9,463 bases of DNA from Bacillota bacterium. GTDB lineage: Bacteria > Bacillota > Clostridia > Acetivibrionales > DSM-2933. How positions within the stretch are numbered: position 1 is the first letter of the stretch; the number at the start of each line of letters is the position of its first letter. The notes beneath the pieces are model-generated. The model was not told the DNA's origin. It was given only the letters and a program-made list of their open reading frames with translations, and made no database searches. Below are positions 2-9,376 of the stretch, piece by piece. Location of the stretch: contig JAEZNF010000440.1 of the NCBI GenBank assembly GCA_023441845.1, positions 1 through 9,463 on the forward strand, read 5' to 3'. The translations under genes were made by a program, and so were the position numbers.

Positions 2-697
2 TTATACATAAGTGATGACGGAGGACAAACATTTAAAACCGCCAAAACCGGTCTCATTCCCGCTTCGGCAAAAATCAAAGCGGTTCCGGGCAAAGAAGGC
101 CATGTATGGATTCCGGGTTCGACGGAAGGTCTTTTCTACACAACTGACGGCGGTGAAACCATAAGTAAAGCAGATGGCATTAAAAGGTGTGACGTGGTTG
201 GATTCGGCAAAGCTAAAACAGGTTCAGATTACCTTGCCATATACATCTGCGGTGAAACAGACGGACTATACGCTGTCTACCGCTCGGATGATATGGCCAA
301 AAACTGGGTGAGAGTGAATGACGACCAGCACCAGTACGGTTCTATAAACTACTCAATTACCGGAGATTTAAGAGTTTATGGGCGTGTTTTTGTTGCAACC
401 AACGGCAGAGGAATAGTTTATGGAGAACCGACAGGCGCTTCACCTACTTTACCTCCACCAACTGCAACAATCAAGACTTCCCCTACAGTTACTCCATCAG
501 CATCGCCTGTAAAGAACCCTCTGGATGTAAATAATGATGGTGCCATAAACATGACCGACGTTATGGCAGTTGCAAGTGCCTTTAACAGTGTAAAAGGTGA
601 CAGCAGATATGTGGAAGCATATGATTTCAACAAGGACGGCGCCGTAAATATGAATGATATTATGATGCTTGCAGCTAAATTCAATACTAAGGCCTAA
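2..697 (+). CDS. GH74 xyloglucanase, C-terminal part, with type-II-like dockerin (5' end outside window)
   Basis: The frame is open from the left edge, so the start and the catalytic acids lie upstream; 231 residues are visible. Visible residues 1-144 (nt 2-433) match the last blades of a GH74 beta-propeller: an Asp-box (SDDGGQTF, about residues 4-11), a second (TDGGET, near 50-55), and the ending TNGRGIVYG typical of GH74. GH74 enzymes are secreted endo-xyloglucanases that cut the beta-1,4-glucan backbone of xyloglucan. A Pro/Thr/Ser-rich linker follows (about nt 434-520). A dockerin with two 12-residue calcium loops closes the protein: loop 1 at nt 524-559 (DVNNDGAINMTD) and loop 2 at nt 623-658 (DFNKDGAVNMND), each followed by a helix ending in F-N. 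Both loops keep Asp/Asn at positions 1, 3, 5, 9 and 12. Residues 10-11 are M-T and M-N, not the Ser-Thr usual in A. thermocellus type I dockerins. No X-module precedes this dockerin. Family and dockerin calls are firm; exact specificity is inferred. Confidence 0.9.
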   Translation, partial: LYISDDGGQTFKTAKTGLIPASAKIKAVPGKEGHVWIPGSTEGLFYTTDGGETISKADGIKRCDVVGFGKAKTGSDYLAIYICGETDGLYAVYRSDDMAKNWVRVNDDQHQYGSINYSITGDLRVYGRVFVATNGRGIVYGEPTGASPTLPPPTATIKTSPTVTPSASPVKNPLDVNNDGAINMTDVMAVASAFNSVKGDSRYVEAYDFNKDGAVNMNDIMMLAAKFNTKA

Positions 698-1059
698 ATT
701 ATAAACAAGTATTTCTCCGTAATAAAAGGCTCTGGACCGTCAAGCCCCGGAGCCTTTTCCTGATTTCCCTTTAAAAACGGTTTTATCAGTCATATTCATC
801 TGTTAGTGAAAAATCCTTATTTATTTAATTTCAATCACTCTGTTACAAATGCGATTAATCATCTGCTTTGCAAAAAGTTATATCCGCTGCCTGGCTGATC
901 AGATATCTAAGTAAACTATGGCTTATTTCGTCATACCCTTGTTGATTTTCTAATTATATATTCTTAAAGGTAACGAAAAGTGAATACTAAAAGGGTAAGA
1001 AACTCGTTTAACGAACTCCTCACCCCAGAAGCTAAATCTCTTGAAAGTAAACTTGTTAT
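698..1059. other. Intergenic gap between convergent genes
   Basis: This 362-base stretch separates the ends of the xyloglucanase (+) and the synthetase (-). Apart from the hairpin at 724-758 I see no credible gene, RNA or promoter. The rest is AT-rich with only short chance palindromes such as GATTAATC. There is no hairpin with a T-run immediately after the synthetase stop, so the shared terminator is the best candidate for ending it. Confidence 0.6.
724..758. terminator. Rho-independent terminator, probably bidirectional
   Basis: A 12-bp stem (724-735 with 747-758, one T-G wobble) encloses an 11-base loop. The core is GGCTC/GAGCC, flanked by four A on the left arm and four T on the right. 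It starts 26 bases after the xyloglucanase stop and can end that transcript. Read on the minus strand the stem is followed by TTTTATT, so it may also stop transcripts from the synthetase gene, whose stop lies about 300 bases away. Confidence 0.8.
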
Positions 1060-4000
1060 TTACAGCATTGTATGCCCGCCGTCAACCGGCAAATACACAC
1101 CTGTCATAAACTCTGAAAGATCACTTGCAAGGAACAGAATCGCTCCGGCTACATCACGCGGCAAACCATTGCGGCGCAGCGGACAGTGTGCAGCAGAAGC
1201 CTCCTTTATCTTGTTTGACATGGTCGCCGACGCGTCGGTCAATGTAAGACCCGGTGCAACTACATTAATTCGAATTCCATCGGGACCAAGTTCCTGGGCC
1301 GCCGCTCTCACAAATGCATCAAGCGCCGCCTTTGATGCACTATGCGCACAATAGCCATGCTGGGCAAGTTTGGACATAGTGCTTGACACAGCAACAATGC
1401 TGCCGCTTTTACGCTCAATCATCTCAGGTATCACTGCTTTACTCAGAAGGAAAATTGACTTGAGCTCACTAACAAGTTTAAGTTCGAAATCATCCCATTC
1501 CAAGTCAACAAACGGCGCAACCTTGAAGCCCATAGCTGCATTTGCAACCATGACATCTATTCTGCCGAACCGACGGCGAACCTGATTTACGAGCTCATCA
1601 ACCTGCTGTTTATCTGTGATATCGGCCTGGAATATGTCTGCAATACCTCCGTCCTCTTCCACTATTTCCTTTACCATTCTGGCCTGTTCATCGCTCTTTA
1701 AGTAGTTAATAGCTACAGAAGCGCCATGACTTGCCAGAAGCCTTACAGTGCTCCGGCCAACCCCTCTGCTTCCACCGGTCACAAGAACCACTTTATTTTC
1801 AAGAAGCCCCGGTACACGAACCTGCTGCCCCCTGCCTGAAGATTTCCGTAATACATTAATTGCCTGATATTCATCACTGTCATTTAATTTACTGTTTGAA
1901 TCTACCAGAAAATTAGCAATTTCATCAAGACGAGGATGCTCAAACACATACATGATTCCGATTTCGGTGCCGAATCGTTCTTTTATTTTCGTAATAAGCC
2001 GCGTTGCTGAAAGCGAATGACCTCCCATTTCAAAGAAGTGGGCTTTTCTTCCAATACGTTCTTCCGGTATTTCAAGAACTTCCGCCCAAATTTCAACAAG
2101 TTTCTTTTCCGCTTCCGTTACAGGAGGTTGGTATGCATCACTCTGTTGGATCTTGCCGGCTGATATCTTGAGCCCGCGGCGGTTGAGCTTACCGTTCGGG
2201 AGCTTGGGCATTTCAGAAAGCGCAACGAATGCTGTCGGAACCATGTACGGCGGCAGCTTTTCCTCAAGGAACAGGCGAAGTCTGCCGATGTCAAGGGAAT
2301 GTCCGGGCTGTTCTACATAAAATGCAATCAGCTGACCGCCTTCACCAACTACAGCACGAACACCCATTCCTTCATATTCTCCAAGTATCTTCTCTACATG
2401 ACGGACATCAACGCGAAATCCCCTTACCTTCACCTGCAAATCCCATCGGCCCAGGTACTCCATATTTCCGTCTTTTAGATACCTGACCACATCACCTGTG
2501 TTGTAAAGAACACTGTTTTCCGGATCAGTACTGTAGGGATTGCGTATAAACCGCTCCTTTGTCATTTCATCCAGTTTATTATACCCAAAAGACATCGAAG
2601 CCCCTGCCACATGGACTTCTCCTGGAACTCCCTCAGGAACCGGCCTTCCTAAACGATCAAGCACATAAATCTGTGTATTCTGAATCGGCCTGCCGGTAGG
2701 AACAAATCCCTGTGAACCATCAAAACCGGCGGTATCGTAGTAGGTGATGTCATTAAGCTCGGTACAGCCGTAATTGTTCAAAAGTACTACACCCGGTAAA
2801 ACCGCACGGAACTTTGTCACCAGTTCGGCAGTCAGGGGTTCACCGGCAGTTATACATACGCGCAGTGACGGAAGCGTAATACCCTCATTTTCCAAATACG
2901 CAAGTACTGTCTGAAGGTGCGAAGGAACGATGTTAAGTCGGCTTGAATTGGATTTTTTAAGTGCGTCAACAAACAGTGCAGTATCCTTCACGGTATCTGT
3001 ATCAATAAATGCAAGCGGACATCCATTCAAAAGTCCGGCAAAAATTTCTTTAACTGAAACCGCAAACGCTATGGTTGTCTTCTGCGCAATCACCTCACCA
3101 GCCTTAAAGGGCCAATTCTTCTCCAGACCGCTCAGCCAGTTGATAAGTTGCAGATGCGGTATCAGAACTCCTTTTGGCGTTCCTGTGGAACCGGATGTAT
3201 ACATGATGTAGGCAAGGTCACCGGGGTTAATAGAATACTTCTCGATCTTTACTTCATCCGAAGGAACTACAAGTTTCGAATCTACGATCAGGCAGTCCTC
3301 ATCCTTCAATCCCAGTTTCTCCTGTTGTTGCCCGGTACTAAGAACCAGTTTCGGTGATGAATTATTAAGGATAGTGCCAAGATATGATTCCGGGTATGCC
3401 GGATCAAGCGGGACATAAGCCGCTCCGGTTTTCCATACAGCCAGGAAGGACGCGAGAAGAGGTGCGCCTCGTTCCATGCAGACGGCCAGTATATCACCCT
3501 TTTTGATACCATGTTCTTTAAGCTTTGCTGCAAGCGCATTTGCTGCTGCTGCAACTTCCTTGTACCGCCATGCTCCATGTGCATCATAGCAAGCTATTGA
3601 ATCAGGAGTTTTACTTACTTGCTGTTCCCAGCGCCCGACAAAATCCAACGGGTTTTCAATTTCACTCTTAGTGTTGTTATATTCGATGAGCAAACGGTTC
3701 CGCTCTTTTGAAGTCAACATGTCAAGCTCAGACAGGCGTCTTTTTCCGTCTTTCATCATCTCGCACAGAATCTGCTGATGATGATGCAGCAAACGCTCAA
3801 TAGTCTCCTCACGATACAGGTCTGACGCATACATTATCTCAACGTCAAGCTTATTGCGGTCGCCGGTATACGACATCTCAACTTCGCAGCGTGCGTTTGC
3901 GCCCTTCCCTGTTGCTGTACGGTAGCCTTCATAGCCCGGATATGTACCGAATTTTACTTGACCGGGCATTTCCACTTGCAGGTTTGTACGTGGAAAGTTC

Positions 4001-5091
4001 TGGTGGCGGATTACAAGGGGCACGAGCGAACCGGATGTACTGCTGCGCTCAACCGCAGAAGAGTAGACAATACGCTCATACGGCACTATCTGATGTTCAA
4101 AACCATCAAGCGATACTTTCCTCACCATATCCATGAATTCATCTACTGTTTTGTCTTCGTCAATAAAAAAACGAAGCGGAAGAATATTGATGAAAAATCC
4201 TATAAGTCCCTCTATTTCCGGAAGGATACGACCTGAAGTAGTTGTACCTATTAGAAGGTCATCTTTTCCTGTATAACGATTTACCATAAGTACAAAACCG
4301 GCAAGCAAAGCCATAAACATTGTACATCCGTGAGACTTTGCAAACTTCTCAAGTGCTCGAGAAAATTCCTCCTCGTAGTGATATTCAAACCGTTCGCTTG
4401 TACTGCCTGATTTGGGAGTTCGCAGGAAATCCGACGGCAATTCGAGTGATGCTTCATAATCAGCCAGATGCTTCTGCCAATATAAAAGGTCATTCGACAT
4501 GTCGAGACGGCGCTGCCAATACGCAAAATCAACATACTGAACAGGCAGCTGCTTTAAAACCGGTGGTACTTCGTTATAAAAGGCTGTATAACACTCCAGC
4601 AATTCCGAGAAAAGTATGCTTTCAATTGACCACCCGTCTGCTGCTATATGATGCACATTTAATAGAAGCAGATGGCGCTTCGGATTGACAGAAAGGAGCC
4701 GCCCAATGAAAATCGGCCCCTGTGAAAGGTCAAATACACATGCTGCATTTTCTGCTATATGACGCGGTATTTCGCTCTCTTCGGCAGGAATCACGGGTAA
4801 TAAAAAGGGCCGCTCCTGAGTGATTACCTGAACCGGTTCACCGCGGGTATTGACGAAAAAACGCGCCCGTAATGTTTCATGGCGCCTTAATATTTCGGTA
4901 AGACTTTTATTTAAAACATCAATGTTAAGTGGCCCATCAAGAAGAAAAACTACAGGAATGTTATAGCTTAAATCATCCGGTCTTTTCCGATTCAGCATCC
5001 AAAGTCTCTCCTGAAACCAGGAAAGCGGATGCTCTTGCTCACCTCCTTTTTTTACAGGCTGAATACTGTCACCGTTTCCTACACTTACCAT
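1060..5091 (-). CDS. Single-module nonribosomal peptide synthetase: condensation-adenylation-carrier fused to a short-chain reductase
   Basis: 1343 residues. The ATG (5089-5091) follows GGAGG with about 6 bases between. Domains in order: (1) condensation, about 22-455, with SWFQERLWML, RHETLRARF (70-78), the active-site motif HHIAADG (147-153; H148, D152) and IGFFINILPLR (297-307), closest to the L-to-L class; (2) adenylation, about 460-975, with YTSGSTGTPKG (631-641), ITAGE (747-751), NNYGCTE (772-778), NTGD (864-867), GRWDLQVKVRGFR (881-893) and catalytic K968 in NGK; (3) carrier, about 985-1060, with phosphopantetheine site S1026 in GGHS; (4) a short-chain dehydrogenase/reductase of FabG/FabL size, about 1097-1343, with nucleotide-binding TGGSRGVG (1105-1112), NAA (1184-1186) and a C-terminal VDGG. 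The adenylation domain should activate an acid with ATP and load it on S1026; the condensation domain would join it to a donor supplied by another protein. Oddities: Ala677 replaces the usual Asp235 (GrsA numbering), and the reductase has Tyr1247-x6-Lys1254, with His1250 where Tyr is normal. There is no thioesterase. It is cytosolic; the product is unknown. Confidence 0.93.
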   Translation of the reverse strand: MVSVGNGDSIQPVKKGGEQEHPLSWFQERLWMLNRKRPDDLSYNIPVVFLLDGPLNIDVLNKSLTEILRRHETLRARFFVNTRGEPVQVITQERPFLLPVIPAEESEIPRHIAENAACVFDLSQGPIFIGRLLSVNPKRHLLLLNVHHIAADGWSIESILFSELLECYTAFYNEVPPVLKQLPVQYVDFAYWQRRLDMSNDLLYWQKHLADYEASLELPSDFLRTPKSGSTSERFEYHYEEEFSRALEKFAKSHGCTMFMALLAGFVLMVNRYTGKDDLLIGTTTSGRILPEIEGLIGFFINILPLRFFIDEDKTVDEFMDMVRKVSLDGFEHQIVPYERIVYSSAVERSSTSGSLVPLVIRHQNFPRTNLQVEMPGQVKFGTYPGYEGYRTATGKGANARCEVEMSYTGDRNKLDVEIMYASDLYREETIERLLHHHQQILCEMMKDGKRRLSELDMLTSKERNRLLIEYNNTKSEIENPLDFVGRWEQQVSKTPDSIACYDAHGAWRYKEVAAAANALAAKLKEHGIKKGDILAVCMERGAPLLASFLAVWKTGAAYVPLDPAYPESYLGTILNNSSPKLVLSTGQQQEKLGLKDEDCLIVDSKLVVPSDEVKIEKYSINPGDLAYIMYTSGSTGTPKGVLIPHLQLINWLSGLEKNWPFKAGEVIAQKTTIAFAVSVKEIFAGLLNGCPLAFIDTDTVKDTALFVDALKKSNSSRLNIVPSHLQTVLAYLENEGITLPSLRVCITAGEPLTAELVTKFRAVLPGVVLLNNYGCTELNDITYYDTAGFDGSQGFVPTGRPIQNTQIYVLDRLGRPVPEGVPGEVHVAGASMSFGYNKLDEMTKERFIRNPYSTDPENSVLYNTGDVVRYLKDGNMEYLGRWDLQVKVRGFRVDVRHVEKILGEYEGMGVRAVVGEGGQLIAFYVEQPGHSLDIGRLRLFLEEKLPPYMVPTAFVALSEMPKLPNGKLNRRGLKISAGKIQQSDAYQPPVTEAEKKLVEIWAEVLEIPEERIGRKAHFFEMGGHSLSATRLITKIKERFGTEIGIMYVFEHPRLDEIANFLVDSNSKLNDSDEYQAINVLRKSSGRGQQVRVPGLLENKVVLVTGGSRGVGRSTVRLLASHGASVAINYLKSDEQARMVKEIVEEDGGIADIFQADITDKQQVDELVNQVRRRFGRIDVMVANAAMGFKVAPFVDLEWDDFELKLVSELKSIFLLSKAVIPEMIERKSGSIVAVSSTMSKLAQHGYCAHSASKAALDAFVRAAAQELGPDGIRINVVAPGLTLTDASATMSNKIKEASAAHCPLRRNGLPRDVAGAILFLASDLSEFMTGVYLPVDGGHTML

Positions 5092-5738: not shown

Positions 5739-6941
5739 TTAGTCTTTTGGCACTTCGTCTCTTTTTAAAAGCACCGCACGGCTTATTTTTGAAGTGCCAA
5801 ACTTCTCGCGGATTTTATCCATAGCCTTTTCAAGCTTTTCTTCCCTGTCATTTTTCAAATTCGTTTCTGTCATATTAAATATTGAAACCTGATCGGCAGC
5901 CAAATCCTCCCCAAAGCCGCATAGGCTAATTCCAAGCAATCGTACAGGCCTTTTATTGTCCCAATTTCTTTTCATTAGCTCAATTCCGGTTGATGCAATA
6001 TCCTTGCTGAGGTAAGTTGCAGGTATGGTGGCCTGCCGGGTTATAACCTTAAAATCGGAATACTTTATTGTTATTTGAACTGTGCGGCCCTTTTTACCGT
6101 ATTTGCGTGCCGTCATTCCCACTTCTTCCGACAACTCCATAATCTTAGACTTTGCATCCTCAATATCCAGAACATCACGTGCAAAAGTGAGGGACCGGCC
6201 GATTGATTTCATATCATTATTAGAGTGTGGAACTACCGGTGCAGCATCAATCCCGTTTGCCCTAAGGTGGATTTCGGCACCTGACTTGCCCAGCTTATCT
6301 TTGAGATGCTGCGGATTGAAGCGGGCCAGTTCACCAATAGTAAATATCCCCATATCATAAAGCTTATTGGCAGTCTGCCTGCCTATACCGTACATATTCT
6401 CAACAGGAAGGGGCCAGAGCTTAAACTCAATATCTTTTACAAAAAGCTCGGTTATCCCCAAAGGCTTTTTCATTTCGGATGCCATTTTTGAAAGGAATTT
6501 ATTTTCCGATATACCTATGGAGCACCACAATCCCAGCTCGTTTTTAATCCTCTCCATTATATTTGCTGCCGATTTTTGAGGGGCTCCGAAAAGTTCTTCA
6601 CAGCCGGTCATATCAAGCCAGGCTTCATCAATACTGTTTTGTTCAAGCAAAGGCGTGTAGCATGAAAGTATATCCATTACTTCTCTCGACTTCTTCTCAT
6701 AAAAGGTATGATCAGGCGGGACAAGGTTTAATCCCGGACATAGCTTCAAGGCTTCGTGAATTACCATTGCAGTTTTGACCCCCGATTTTCGTGCTTCATA
6801 ATTTGCCGCAAGTATTATACCCGTACGTTTTTTAGGGTCACCAGCCACTGCAGACGGCTTTTCTCTTAATTCCGGACGCCTTGTCAATTCACAAGATATA
6901 AAAAATGCATTCATATCAACAAGAAATATAACCCTATTCAA
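5739..6941 (-). CDS. dinB: DNA polymerase IV (Y-family translesion polymerase), TTG start
   Basis: 400 residues, a normal length for the family. The enzyme copies past damaged bases with low fidelity and no proofreading. Palm residues: D9 in VDMNAFF (metal ligand; F14 is the expected steric gate) and D105-E106 in SIDEAWLD. The sequence S-I-G-I-S-E-N-K-F-L-S-K-M-A-S (141-155) is strongly conserved in Pol IV. A helix-hairpin-helix follows at 183-205 (MYGIGRQTANKL), then the little finger from about 240. QVSIF (351-355) fits a beta-clamp-binding motif. The start is TTG at 6941-6939 behind the purine-rich GAGGGATGGGG; the first ATG in frame is codon 10, which would remove catalytic D9, so a non-ATG start is required. 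It is divergent from the galactanase gene and followed by its own terminator. No LexA-type operator was seen, so SOS control is not evident. Confidence 0.95.
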   Translation of the reverse strand: MNRVIFLVDMNAFFISCELTRRPELREKPSAVAGDPKKRTGIILAANYEARKSGVKTAMVIHEALKLCPGLNLVPPDHTFYEKKSREVMDILSCYTPLLEQNSIDEAWLDMTGCEELFGAPQKSAANIMERIKNELGLWCSIGISENKFLSKMASEMKKPLGITELFVKDIEFKLWPLPVENMYGIGRQTANKLYDMGIFTIGELARFNPQHLKDKLGKSGAEIHLRANGIDAAPVVPHSNNDMKSIGRSLTFARDVLDIEDAKSKIMELSEEVGMTARKYGKKGRTVQITIKYSDFKVITRQATIPATYLSKDIASTGIELMKRNWDNKRPVRLLGISLCGFGEDLAADQVSIFNMTETNLKNDREEKLEKAMDKIREKFGTSKISRAVLLKRDEVPKD

Positions 6942-7195: not shown

Positions 7196-8824
7196 ATGCT
7201 AAGAAAAAAGGGGTTTCGAATTCTGCCGTTAATTCTTTGTTTAGCGGTTATTTTATCATTTTTCGTCAATATGTTCTTTCCTGCTCCGATTAAAGCATCT
7301 GCGGCATTTGCATGCGGAGCAGACGTCAGCTGGCTGCCCCAGATGGAAGCTAAAGGATACAAGTTTTATGACGATAACGGGGTCCAAAAGGACTGCCTTC
7401 AAATATTAAAGGAGCACGGAATCGACTCAATCAGGATAAGGGTGTGGGTTAACCCCTCAAATGACCCTTACAGCGGTCACTGCAGTAAAACAGAGACAAT
7501 TGAGCTTGCAAAACGCTGTGCAAAAATGGGATTTCGAATTATGATAGACTTTCATTACAGCGATTCATGGGCCGACCCCGGTAAGCAGAACAAGCCCGCT
7601 GCATGGGTGACACACAGCTTCAGCCAGCTTCTGACCGATGTATACAACCATACATACGACGTTCTAACTGCTCTTAAGGCAAGCGGCGTAACACCCGAAT
7701 GGGTGCAGGTAGGGAACGAAACCAATAACGGCATGCTCTGGGAAGACGGCATGGCATCAAAAAACATGAAAAATTTTGCGCAGCTTGTTACAAGCGGATA
7801 CGATGCTGTAAAAGCCGTATTCGGTAATACAAAAGTAATAGTACATATATCCAATGCTCACGATAACAGCCTGTTCAGGTGGATTTTTGACGGACTCAAA
7901 AACAACGGCGGCAAATACGATGTCATCGGGATGTCGTTTTACCCTGAGACAAGCAACTGGTCAAGCCTTTTAAGCCAATGTACAACAAACATGCAGGATA
8001 TGGCGAAAAGGTACGGCAAGGAAGTCATGGTATGCGAAGTCGGAATGGATAACTCAGCTGCCCAAACAGCCAAAACCATGTTGTCCGAACTCTTGCAAAA
8101 GGTAAAGTCCTTAAATGACGGAAAAGGTCTCGGGGTGTTTTATTGGGAGCCCCAATGCTACAATTGGGCAAGCTACGGCAAAGGTGCATGGAGTACCAAC
8201 GGCAGGCCGACGGTTGCAATGGACGCATTTATCGGCTATGGCAGCATTACTCCAACTCCTACATCAATACCCGTTCCTACATATACACAAAGGCCAACTG
8301 CAACGGAGCCTGAGCCAACCCCAACATCTGATTTATGCTCATTAAGCGGATACATAGCTCCCGATTTTCCATTAAAATCTGCTGCTGCACCTAATATTCT
8401 TCCCGATTTTAAAGTCGAAATAGAAGGCTCAGATTACTTTGCATATACAGACAAAACCGGGTTCTTTGAAATAAACAATATCCCTTCTCAATACTCAAGT
8501 GGTTGTGACGTAAGAATTACAAAGCCGGGTTTTCTTGCAAGAGAAATCAATAATGTTGCAGTCAAAGGTTCTGTTAATCTCGGATCATCAAGCTCGCCCG
8601 TATTAATGTGGGCAGGTGATGTTTTAAGAAACGGGAAACAGGATAACGCTATCAACATGACGGATATAATGGATATTGCAAAAGCGTTTAATACTTGTAA
8701 CGGAGATGGAAAATATAATTCTTCATATGATATAAATAAGGATAATTCAATTAATATGTCGGATATAATGATTGTTGCAAAACACTTTAACACGGCAACA
8801 GTAAACTATCCTGCCGTTTTTTAG
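7196..8824 (+). CDS. Secreted GH53 endo-beta-1,4-galactanase with X-module and type II dockerin
   Basis: 542 residues. The ATG at 7196 is preceded by GGGGGTGG with 6 bases between. A signal peptide covers about 1-36 (basic MLRKKGFR, hydrophobic 9-28, likely cut after A-S-A at 34-36). The GH53 TIM barrel (about 38-348) opens with GADVSWLPQMEAKG; E175 in VGNETNNG is the expected acid/base and E281 in VCEVGM the nucleophile. GH53 cuts the beta-1,4-galactan of pectic arabinogalactan type I. A Pro/Thr linker (351-378) follows, then an X-module (about 380-471: SGYIAPDF, FKVEIEG, TGFFEINNIP, SSPVLMWAGD) and a dockerin (about 472-532) with INMTD and DINKDNSINMSD loops. As I recall it, the CipA X-module/type II dockerin has the same motifs in the same order, so the enzyme probably binds type II cohesins, in A. 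thermocellus the cell-surface class. The first calcium loop appears to carry about four extra residues (near 479-482). No strong terminator follows. Confidence 0.94.
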   Translation: MLRKKGFRILPLILCLAVILSFFVNMFFPAPIKASAAFACGADVSWLPQMEAKGYKFYDDNGVQKDCLQILKEHGIDSIRIRVWVNPSNDPYSGHCSKTETIELAKRCAKMGFRIMIDFHYSDSWADPGKQNKPAAWVTHSFSQLLTDVYNHTYDVLTALKASGVTPEWVQVGNETNNGMLWEDGMASKNMKNFAQLVTSGYDAVKAVFGNTKVIVHISNAHDNSLFRWIFDGLKNNGGKYDVIGMSFYPETSNWSSLLSQCTTNMQDMAKRYGKEVMVCEVGMDNSAAQTAKTMLSELLQKVKSLNDGKGLGVFYWEPQCYNWASYGKGAWSTNGRPTVAMDAFIGYGSITPTPTSIPVPTYTQRPTATEPEPTPTSDLCSLSGYIAPDFPLKSAAAPNILPDFKVEIEGSDYFAYTDKTGFFEINNIPSQYSSGCDVRITKPGFLAREINNVAVKGSVNLGSSSSPVLMWAGDVLRNGKQDNAINMTDIMDIAKAFNTCNGDGKYNSSYDINKDNSINMSDIMIVAKHFNTATVNYPAVF

Positions 8825-9044: not shown

Positions 9045-9078
9045 ATCCCTTAATTCGCATTTATAGGAATTAAGGGGT
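9045..9078 (-). terminator. Hairpin overlapping the 3' end of the toxin gene
   Basis: CCCTTAATTC (9047-9056) and GAATTAAGGG (9067-9076) form a perfect 10-bp stem around a 10-base loop; a T-G wobble and one A-T pair extend it to 9045-9078. The stem contains the toxin stop codon and its last codons. On the minus strand only ATTCTTATC follows, a poor T-run, so it may be an imperfect terminator or protect the mRNA end. It could also act on the galactanase transcript arriving from the other side. Confidence 0.5.
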
Positions 9079-9376
9079 ACTTACTTGGTGAATATTTAAC
9101 TGTAACAACAATTACATGTTTCATTTTTTCATCGATTCTATAAACAATAGTAAAATTCTTAATAAATAATTGACGATATCCTCTATTTGCATAAACACCA
9201 ATTTTCCGTTCAGACCCTCGGCGAGATAACTTTTCTAATGATAAAACTGCGTCTTCAAAAGATACTACCAAATTTAAAGCTGCTTCAGGTGACCGAAGTT
9301 CAGCAGAAATATATTCATAAATTTGATCAATATCTCTATATGCCTTTGGGAGCAATTTTACTTCATACTTATCCAA
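9050..9376 (-). CDS. RelE/ParE-superfamily toxin of a type II toxin-antitoxin pair, TTG start
   Basis: 108 residues, normal for the family. An N-terminal strand (YEVKLLPKA, 4-12) leads into two amphipathic helices (about 13-26 and 30-50, YRDIDQIYEYIS then EAALNLVVSFEDAVLSLEKL). A basic turn (SRRGSERK, 51-58) and C-terminal strands follow (YRQLFIKNFTIVYRI, 67-81; HVIVVTVKYS, 87-96), the usual order for this fold. Members either cleave mRNA at the ribosome (RelE) or poison gyrase (ParE); the sequence alone does not settle which, although the helical part looks more ParE-like. The start is TTG at 9376-9374, about 7 bases after AGGAGG. Its first 8 bases overlap the end of the preceding reading frame, typical of translationally coupled toxin-antitoxin genes with the antitoxin first. 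Confidence 0.8.
   Translation of the reverse strand: MDKYEVKLLPKAYRDIDQIYEYISAELRSPEAALNLVVSFEDAVLSLEKLSRRGSERKIGVYANRGYRQLFIKNFTIVYRIDEKMKHVIVVTVKYSPSKYPLIPINAN

Follow-up and report, generated by a model that had tools for sequence, protein, structure and literature searches.

A single-module nonribosomal peptide synthetase with a p-aminobenzoate-type adenylation signature and a C-terminal short-chain dehydrogenase/reductase domain without the catalytic tyrosine

The nonribosomal peptide synthetase (NRPS) lines for albicidin, cystobactamid and lapcin include modules for p-aminobenzoic acid (PABA) which, according to the lapcin paper (PMC8837603), have a condensation-adenylation-carrier organisation and share Ala235 and an adenylation signature that corresponds, in our own translation of the published DNA pattern, to QKxxxxFA[VI]xxKE. 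These lines are described there as multi-modular, with that of lapcin ending in a thioesterase (PMC8837603). The gene considered here lies in a 9,463-nucleotide stretch (called the window) of contig JAEZNF010000440.1 of a clostridial Bacillota bacterium. In contrast to those lines, its product consists of one module with a short-chain dehydrogenase/reductase (SDR) domain as its tail, and its family has its own pabA and pabBC genes in seven loci. The gene is a single open frame on the minus strand (1060..5091) encoding 1343 amino acids (aa) in the order condensation, adenylation, carrier, SDR.

The terminal reductase (R/TD) domains of NRPSs occupy the same place after the last carrier, and are extended SDRs of family PF07993, while the chemistry of SDRs in general is taught around a Ser-Tyr-Lys triad. 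The FabG 3-oxoacyl-acyl carrier protein (ACP) reductases are like the domain described here in fold, cofactor loop, Ser and Lys, but it has His or Gln for the catalytic Tyr and Glu for the tetrad Asn, and does not reach the cut-offs of the listed FabG models. The FabL enoyl-ACP reductase shares a Y-x6-K spacing with the window protein. Lastly, SDRs of Chlorobiaceae, cyanobacteria, Acidobacteriota and others lack the same Tyr and have the same Glu, Ser, His and Lys but are free-standing; most of those in the aligned sample show 48-60% identity (43% for one, L014). A PABA module and an SDR of the FabG fold are thus each of a known kind, and their fusion appears to be undescribed: the open-access full-text literature, judged mostly from titles and the starts of abstracts and with subscription papers outside its scope, gave no description of the fusion, of a Tyr-less site shared by several phyla or of a pab cassette. 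If the domain is active, it would represent an SDR mechanism without tyrosine, open to testing on a single purified protein.

Active site of the terminal SDR domain

The SDR domain (residues 1097-1343; 1063..1803, minus strand) matches PF00106 (1100-1293) and PF13561 (1109-1341), which bears out the proposal of an earlier note on this DNA that the synthetase ends in a small classical SDR. The same note had set it apart from the extended terminal reductases, and indeed the domain has five Pfam matches (E 0.001), none of them to PF07993, on which ground an identity as an extended NRPS reductase was rejected. Homologues of residues 1090-1343 were sought among proteins 0.55 to 1.75 times as long as the whole protein (E 1e-5), which yielded 214, and the query was aligned with the 120 of these that were listed. 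Of the resulting 121 rows, 110 have lengths of 1280-1410 aa and the condensation motif is present in 112, the rest being shorter and mostly on short contigs. A second search used eight fused domains as a profile and returned 3659 proteins at E 1e-40 among 7999 candidates scored, 120 of which were listed. At least 10 of these are fragments of the fusion that include a carrier domain; the remainder mostly have a length of about 250 aa, and some, from very short contigs, may be fragments too.

The TGxxxGxG cofactor loop of classical SDRs is present in the domain. Ser1237 (1381..1383, minus strand, as for all residues of this site) is Ser in 120 of the 121 aligned sequences and in 118 of the 120 proteins of the profile search, and Lys1254 (1330..1332) is Lys in 121/121 and 120/120. 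Both are where the earlier note had placed them. The canonical position of the catalytic Tyr is taken by His1250 (1342..1344), as that note had also read it, and varies between His and Gln (84 and 37 of 121; 108 and 12 of 120). The Ser-Tyr-Lys and Asn tetrad of classical SDRs such as FabG is therefore not present, since Tyr is recovered at the catalytic position in none of the 121 aligned sequences, and likewise in none of the 120 listed profile matches, while the tetrad Asn, which we take to correspond to Asn111 of FabG, is replaced by Glu1209 (1465..1467) in all 121 aligned sequences and in 119 of the 120 (one Asp). Because Tyr is absent while Ser and Lys are kept across the alignment, the missing Tyr is not a matter of chance or of sequencing error. 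A covariation was seen at position 1186, which is His in 34 of the 37 rows with Gln1250 and in none of the 84 with His1250; in the profile-search set, it is His in 12/12 Gln rows and 2/108 His rows. As the pairing follows one branch, it may reflect descent only and is not counted as proof.

From the Y-x6-K spacing it had been suggested that the domain may be an enoyl reductase of the FabI/FabL type, with Tyr1247 (1351..1353) as the catalytic residue. The spacing is literally there in the window protein, and Tyr1247 is also Tyr in its closest kin and in 46 of the 121 aligned sequences, but it is Phe in the other 75, and among the 120 listed profile matches Phe occurs in 113, Tyr in just 4 and Leu in 3. 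The NCBIfam FabL model NF005975 gives the domain 177 bits against a cut-off of 328, a lower score than that of several FabG-type models, and the domain also fails to reach the cut-off of any FabG model among the NCBIfam models listed (25 of 236). A comparison of structure models with FabG and FabL had also been suggested. The AlphaFold2 model of the SDR domain (83 sequences) has a predicted local distance difference test score (pLDDT) of 97.2, an earlier model built on 8 sequences (pLDDT 65.8) having been discarded. Its best matches in a structure search are FabG entries (29-38% identity), with a template modelling (TM) score of 0.96 to 2uvd, and the predicted fold is thus FabG-like. No FabL entry was among the 50 structures listed or in a second structure comparison, which is not proof of absence. 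Given the conservation of position 1247 and the family-model scores, FabL/FabI identity was rejected, and we regard a catalytic role of Tyr1247 as highly improbable. The other suggestion of the earlier note, an unusual action on the thioester, may still hold.

The conservation of Glu, Ser, His or Gln, and Lys also holds in free-standing SDRs, and the source names in the profile set include a FabG of Chlorobiaceae and a short-chain dehydrogenase of Nostoc. A tree was built by a quick method from 74 hand-picked rows of fused, profile-search and other SDR loci, and has several long branches. In it, all 29 fused SDRs fall into a single clade with a Shimodaira-Hasegawa-like approximate likelihood-ratio test (SH-aLRT) value of 98, and this clade is nested in a group of 54 rows that lack Tyr at the catalytic position (support 93), with the 20 other SDRs outside. 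The Tyr-less group includes L014 as well as L016, which is 40% identical and has Thr at the Ser position and Leu at the His position. From this nesting it follows that Tyr was lost before the fusion arose, and that one fusion event suffices in the sample. Free-standing SDRs with the Glu-Ser-His-Lys site were seen in Chlorobiaceae and in the Sorangium family (L006-L011 and L098-L100; for example, proteins P0151, P0172 and P0233). Judging by the sequences, the FabG label of some Chlorobiaceae proteins without the catalytic Tyr may be a misannotation. Apart from the SDR itself and overlapping frames, no neighbour is common to more than two of 15 loci of free-standing Tyr-less SDRs, and the pairs that do occur are close kin or belong to common families.

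Adenylation signature and the linked pab genes

The marks of an NRPS elongation module are present upstream of the SDR. The condensation domain (residues 18-468; 3688..5040, minus strand; PF00668) has an intact HHxxxDG motif at residues 147-153, its closest solved relatives are Txo2 and Txo1, and the two His and the Asp are found in all 112 rows that cover the motif. The adenylation domain (residues 489-975; 2167..3627, minus strand) matches PF00501 (489-837) and, under its cut-off, PF13193 (899-968), and its core Lys is conserved in 121/121. The carrier domain, matched by PF00550 (PP-binding) at residues 997-1062 (1906..2103, minus strand), has its phosphopantetheine site at Ser1026, which is Ser in 121/121. 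The pocket residues read AVKIIANDIK, at positions set by eye from the motifs and in what we take to be the GrsA numbering. The pocket may resemble the albicidin-type code, a likeness not counted as evidence. For the cystobactamid modules, the text consulted gave no pocket residues (PMC7966384).

The lapcin paper gives a DNA signature for PABA-specific adenylation domains and names Ala235 as one mark of these domains; the pattern as printed there has 38 bases, against 47 stated in its text (PMC8837603). The window contains one exact match to this signature (3046..3083, minus strand), encoding QKTTIAFAVSVKE, and 200 shuffles contain none. Ala is also found here at position 235, in accordance with the mark named in that paper. 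In its protein form the signature occurs in 87 of the 121 relatives, and at this place the other 34 read FAP (32) or FVV (2). As a control, 22 adenylation-domain matches from three unrelated NRPS regions were inspected and none has it. Among all loci examined, the DNA signature occurs in no locus outside this fusion family, and some members are without it: L003 shows FAP instead, and the relevant part of the gene is missing from L096 and L108. Two variants were noted besides, namely Pro at pocket position 236 (the FAPSVKE type) in 32 of the 121 relatives and HHxxxDA in place of HHxxxDG in 32 of the 112 covering rows; a shift in substrate is a possible explanation of the two on sequence grounds. 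The absence of Asp235 had led us to consider an embedded alpha-keto-acid ketoreductase of the depsipeptide-synthetase type, which was dropped given the PABA signature.

Ten fusion loci were compared, namely the window and L001, L002, L003, L094, L095, L096, L097, L101 (the same as L015) and L108, with L002, L096 and L108 holding part of the synthetase only. In seven of the ten, which come from three Fibrobacterota genomes and four genomes of the Sorangium family, and hence from two phyla other than that of the window, the synthetase gene is directly followed by pabA and a pabB-pabC fusion. These are the sole neighbours common to more than two of nine loci (L108 was not included). Two of the linked PabB were tested and reach the NCBIfam pabB cut-off (330 and 357 against 328.4), and the cut-off of the shared TrpG/PabA model is also reached. 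The Sorangium PabBC protein has a chorismate-binding and an aminotransferase class IV domain. All seven linked PabB have the motif PIKGT, and the TrpE-type matches of genomes G001, G003, G024 and G525 have PIAGT, a difference of one letter that we take to distinguish PabB from TrpE. In three of the seven pab-linked genomes (G554, G578 and G525), a second PIKGT protein is encoded elsewhere. On the strength of the signature match and of the pabA-pabBC linkage, the loading of PABA on the carrier by this synthetase is a well supported prediction. Together they suggest that a single synthetase makes a small PABA metabolite in lineages among which are known degraders of cellulose, which we take Sorangium and Fibrobacterota to be; the window adds dockerins. 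We also considered, and dropped, a connection with the yellow cellulose-binding pigments of cellulolytic Clostridia, since celluxanthenes and flavoaffinins are products of a type I polyketide synthase built from phenylacetate (from Phe or Tyr), malonate or acetate, and Trp (PMC12144888; PMC11839114).

Proposed reaction and its alternatives

We tentatively favour, as plausible rather than probable, a single-module PABA NRPS whose FabG-like, Tyr-less SDR reduces and releases the carrier-bound product with NADPH, His serving as the substitute for Tyr. PABA would be adenylated and then loaded on Ser1026, and the condensation domain would couple the aniline nitrogen with a donor of the acyl or aminoacyl type or with a second PABA. 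At the SDR, reduction of the thioester with NADPH would give an aldehyde or an alcohol and so release the product, with His1250 (or Gln with another group) as the acid/base element beside Lys1254 and Glu1209. Release is assigned to the SDR because a Pfam scan of the protein found no thioesterase or other release domain in the synthetase and because pabA and pabBC are the only recurring neighbours. The search for the same fusion in other genomes that the earlier note had called for was successful in Clostridia, Fibrobacterota and myxobacteria, a spread from which it is likely that the domain does real chemistry. We infer the use of PABA as substrate in vivo, NADP(H)-dependent redox activity of the SDR, and liberation of the product through thioester reduction.

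Several observations weigh against this proposal, both in its substrate and in its chemistry. On the side of the substrate, pab genes are absent from the 9.5-kb window, from L108 (a clostridial contig of 4.1 kb) and from L002 (less than 2 kb after the gene), the latter two being short contigs. The top-scoring model for the two PabB tested is trpE_most, whose own cut-off of 518 is not reached (393 and 397), and both likewise fall short of the pabC cut-off of 177 (107 and 122). At E 1e-20 no second PIKGT protein was seen in G001, G003, G024 and G004 (with one ambiguous match in G004), so that in these four genomes the linked pab genes may serve folate. The clostridial genome of L108 (G992) gave only a TrpE-type match and none of the PabB type, which, unless that genome is incomplete, makes the case for PABA weaker in the Clostridia. 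These last two points, together with the Pro at pocket position 236 in part of the family, are what one would expect if another aryl acid (anthranilate, p-hydroxybenzoate or an aminohydroxybenzoate) were adenylated and the pab neighbours served folate only; we consider this very unlikely given the exact signature match, its absence from the 22 controls and a gene order kept in two phyla.

On the side of the chemistry, release reductases known so far belong to the extended SDRs and have Tyr, and the Sorangium-type branch, to which four of the seven pab-linked loci belong, has at the His position a Gln, which cannot be a general acid; the His1186 that accompanies Gln in 34 of 37 rows follows one branch and is missing from the other three. 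Moreover, no NRPS relative was found around the free-standing SDRs in the DNA examined, except for a weak adenylation match in L098, and since these SDRs have the same site, release from an NRPS was probably not what the ancestral enzyme catalysed. The free-standing kin, which need release nothing, are in keeping with an SDR that reduces a keto, imine or enoyl group, introduced via the condensation domain, while it is on the carrier, with release by other means. Both the FabG-like sequence and fold and the usual mode of action of classical SDR domains in synthetases agree with such a role. PABA itself, however, has no keto group, and no partner enzyme that would supply a reducible group recurs near the nine loci; we hold on-carrier reduction to be unlikely but a serious rival. 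Slightly less likely, and also a serious rival, is a non-redox role as a release or cyclising domain or as a structural remnant, for which the redox-inactive R* domains offer a parallel. The triad Tyr is missing throughout, Asn has become Glu and one branch has Gln, but proteins of different phyla retain the cofactor loop, Ser and Lys, and the Tyr-less pattern is older than the fusion, which argues for a conserved alternative site rather than decay. Returning to reductive release, a wider and more speculative form of the proposal is that a PABA synthetase acquired, on a single occasion, a domain of an undescribed SDR subfamily whose active site is Glu-Ser-His(Gln)-Lys, and that the resulting cassette of one gene or of three (NRPS, pabA and pabBC) has since spread among Fibrobacterota, Polyangia and cellulosome-bearing Clostridia, where it would make a reduced PABA metabolite by tyrosine-free reductive release.

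Distribution and gene neighbourhood

The fused gene is widespread yet patchy. In a genome survey with the SDR profile (E 1e-80 or 1e-90), matches were found in 4 of 167 Fibrobacterota genomes, in 7 of 108 genomes of the Sorangium family (three of them free-standing SDRs) and in 1 of 329 sampled genomes of the Sorangium phylum, with about eight candidates scored per genome. The class Clostridia gave 0 of 391 sampled genomes with about seven candidates scored per genome, one clostridial family 0 of 14 and its order 1 of 58. As few candidates were scored per genome, the counts for the Sorangium phylum and the Clostridia may be too low. Among the matches listed from a tblastn search against plasmids, there were only NRPSs and other matches of less than 60% identity. 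In L108 (positions 1-410), a condensation piece adjoins the carrier domain and the adenylation domain is missing at the contig edge, which is likely an assembly effect.

According to a Pfam scan of the window, the genes flanking the synthetase are unrelated to it. Directly 3' of the NRPS stop is a terminator-like hairpin with a T-rich tail (992..1026, minus strand), a weak candidate from a consensus scan only, as the stretch scanned holds 4 such hairpins against 4.8 expected from shuffles; Rfam gave zero matches within the window. On one side lies the terminal part of a dockerin-bearing BNR/sortilin-like protein (2-697, plus strand), and on the other are a Y-family DNA polymerase (5739-6941) and a GH53 protein with a dockerin (7196-8824, plus strand). 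The two dockerin proteins are likely parts of a cellulosome, and the dockerins, like the nearest named relatives from the homologue search, suggest that the DNA comes from a clostridium with cellulosomes. The G+C content of the NRPS gene (46%) and of its neighbours (42-45%) gives no clear signal of transfer, and that of a ParE-like toxin frame (9050-9376, minus strand; PF05016, 41.8 bits) is 31%. The antitoxin partner of this frame may sit at or past the right end of the window.
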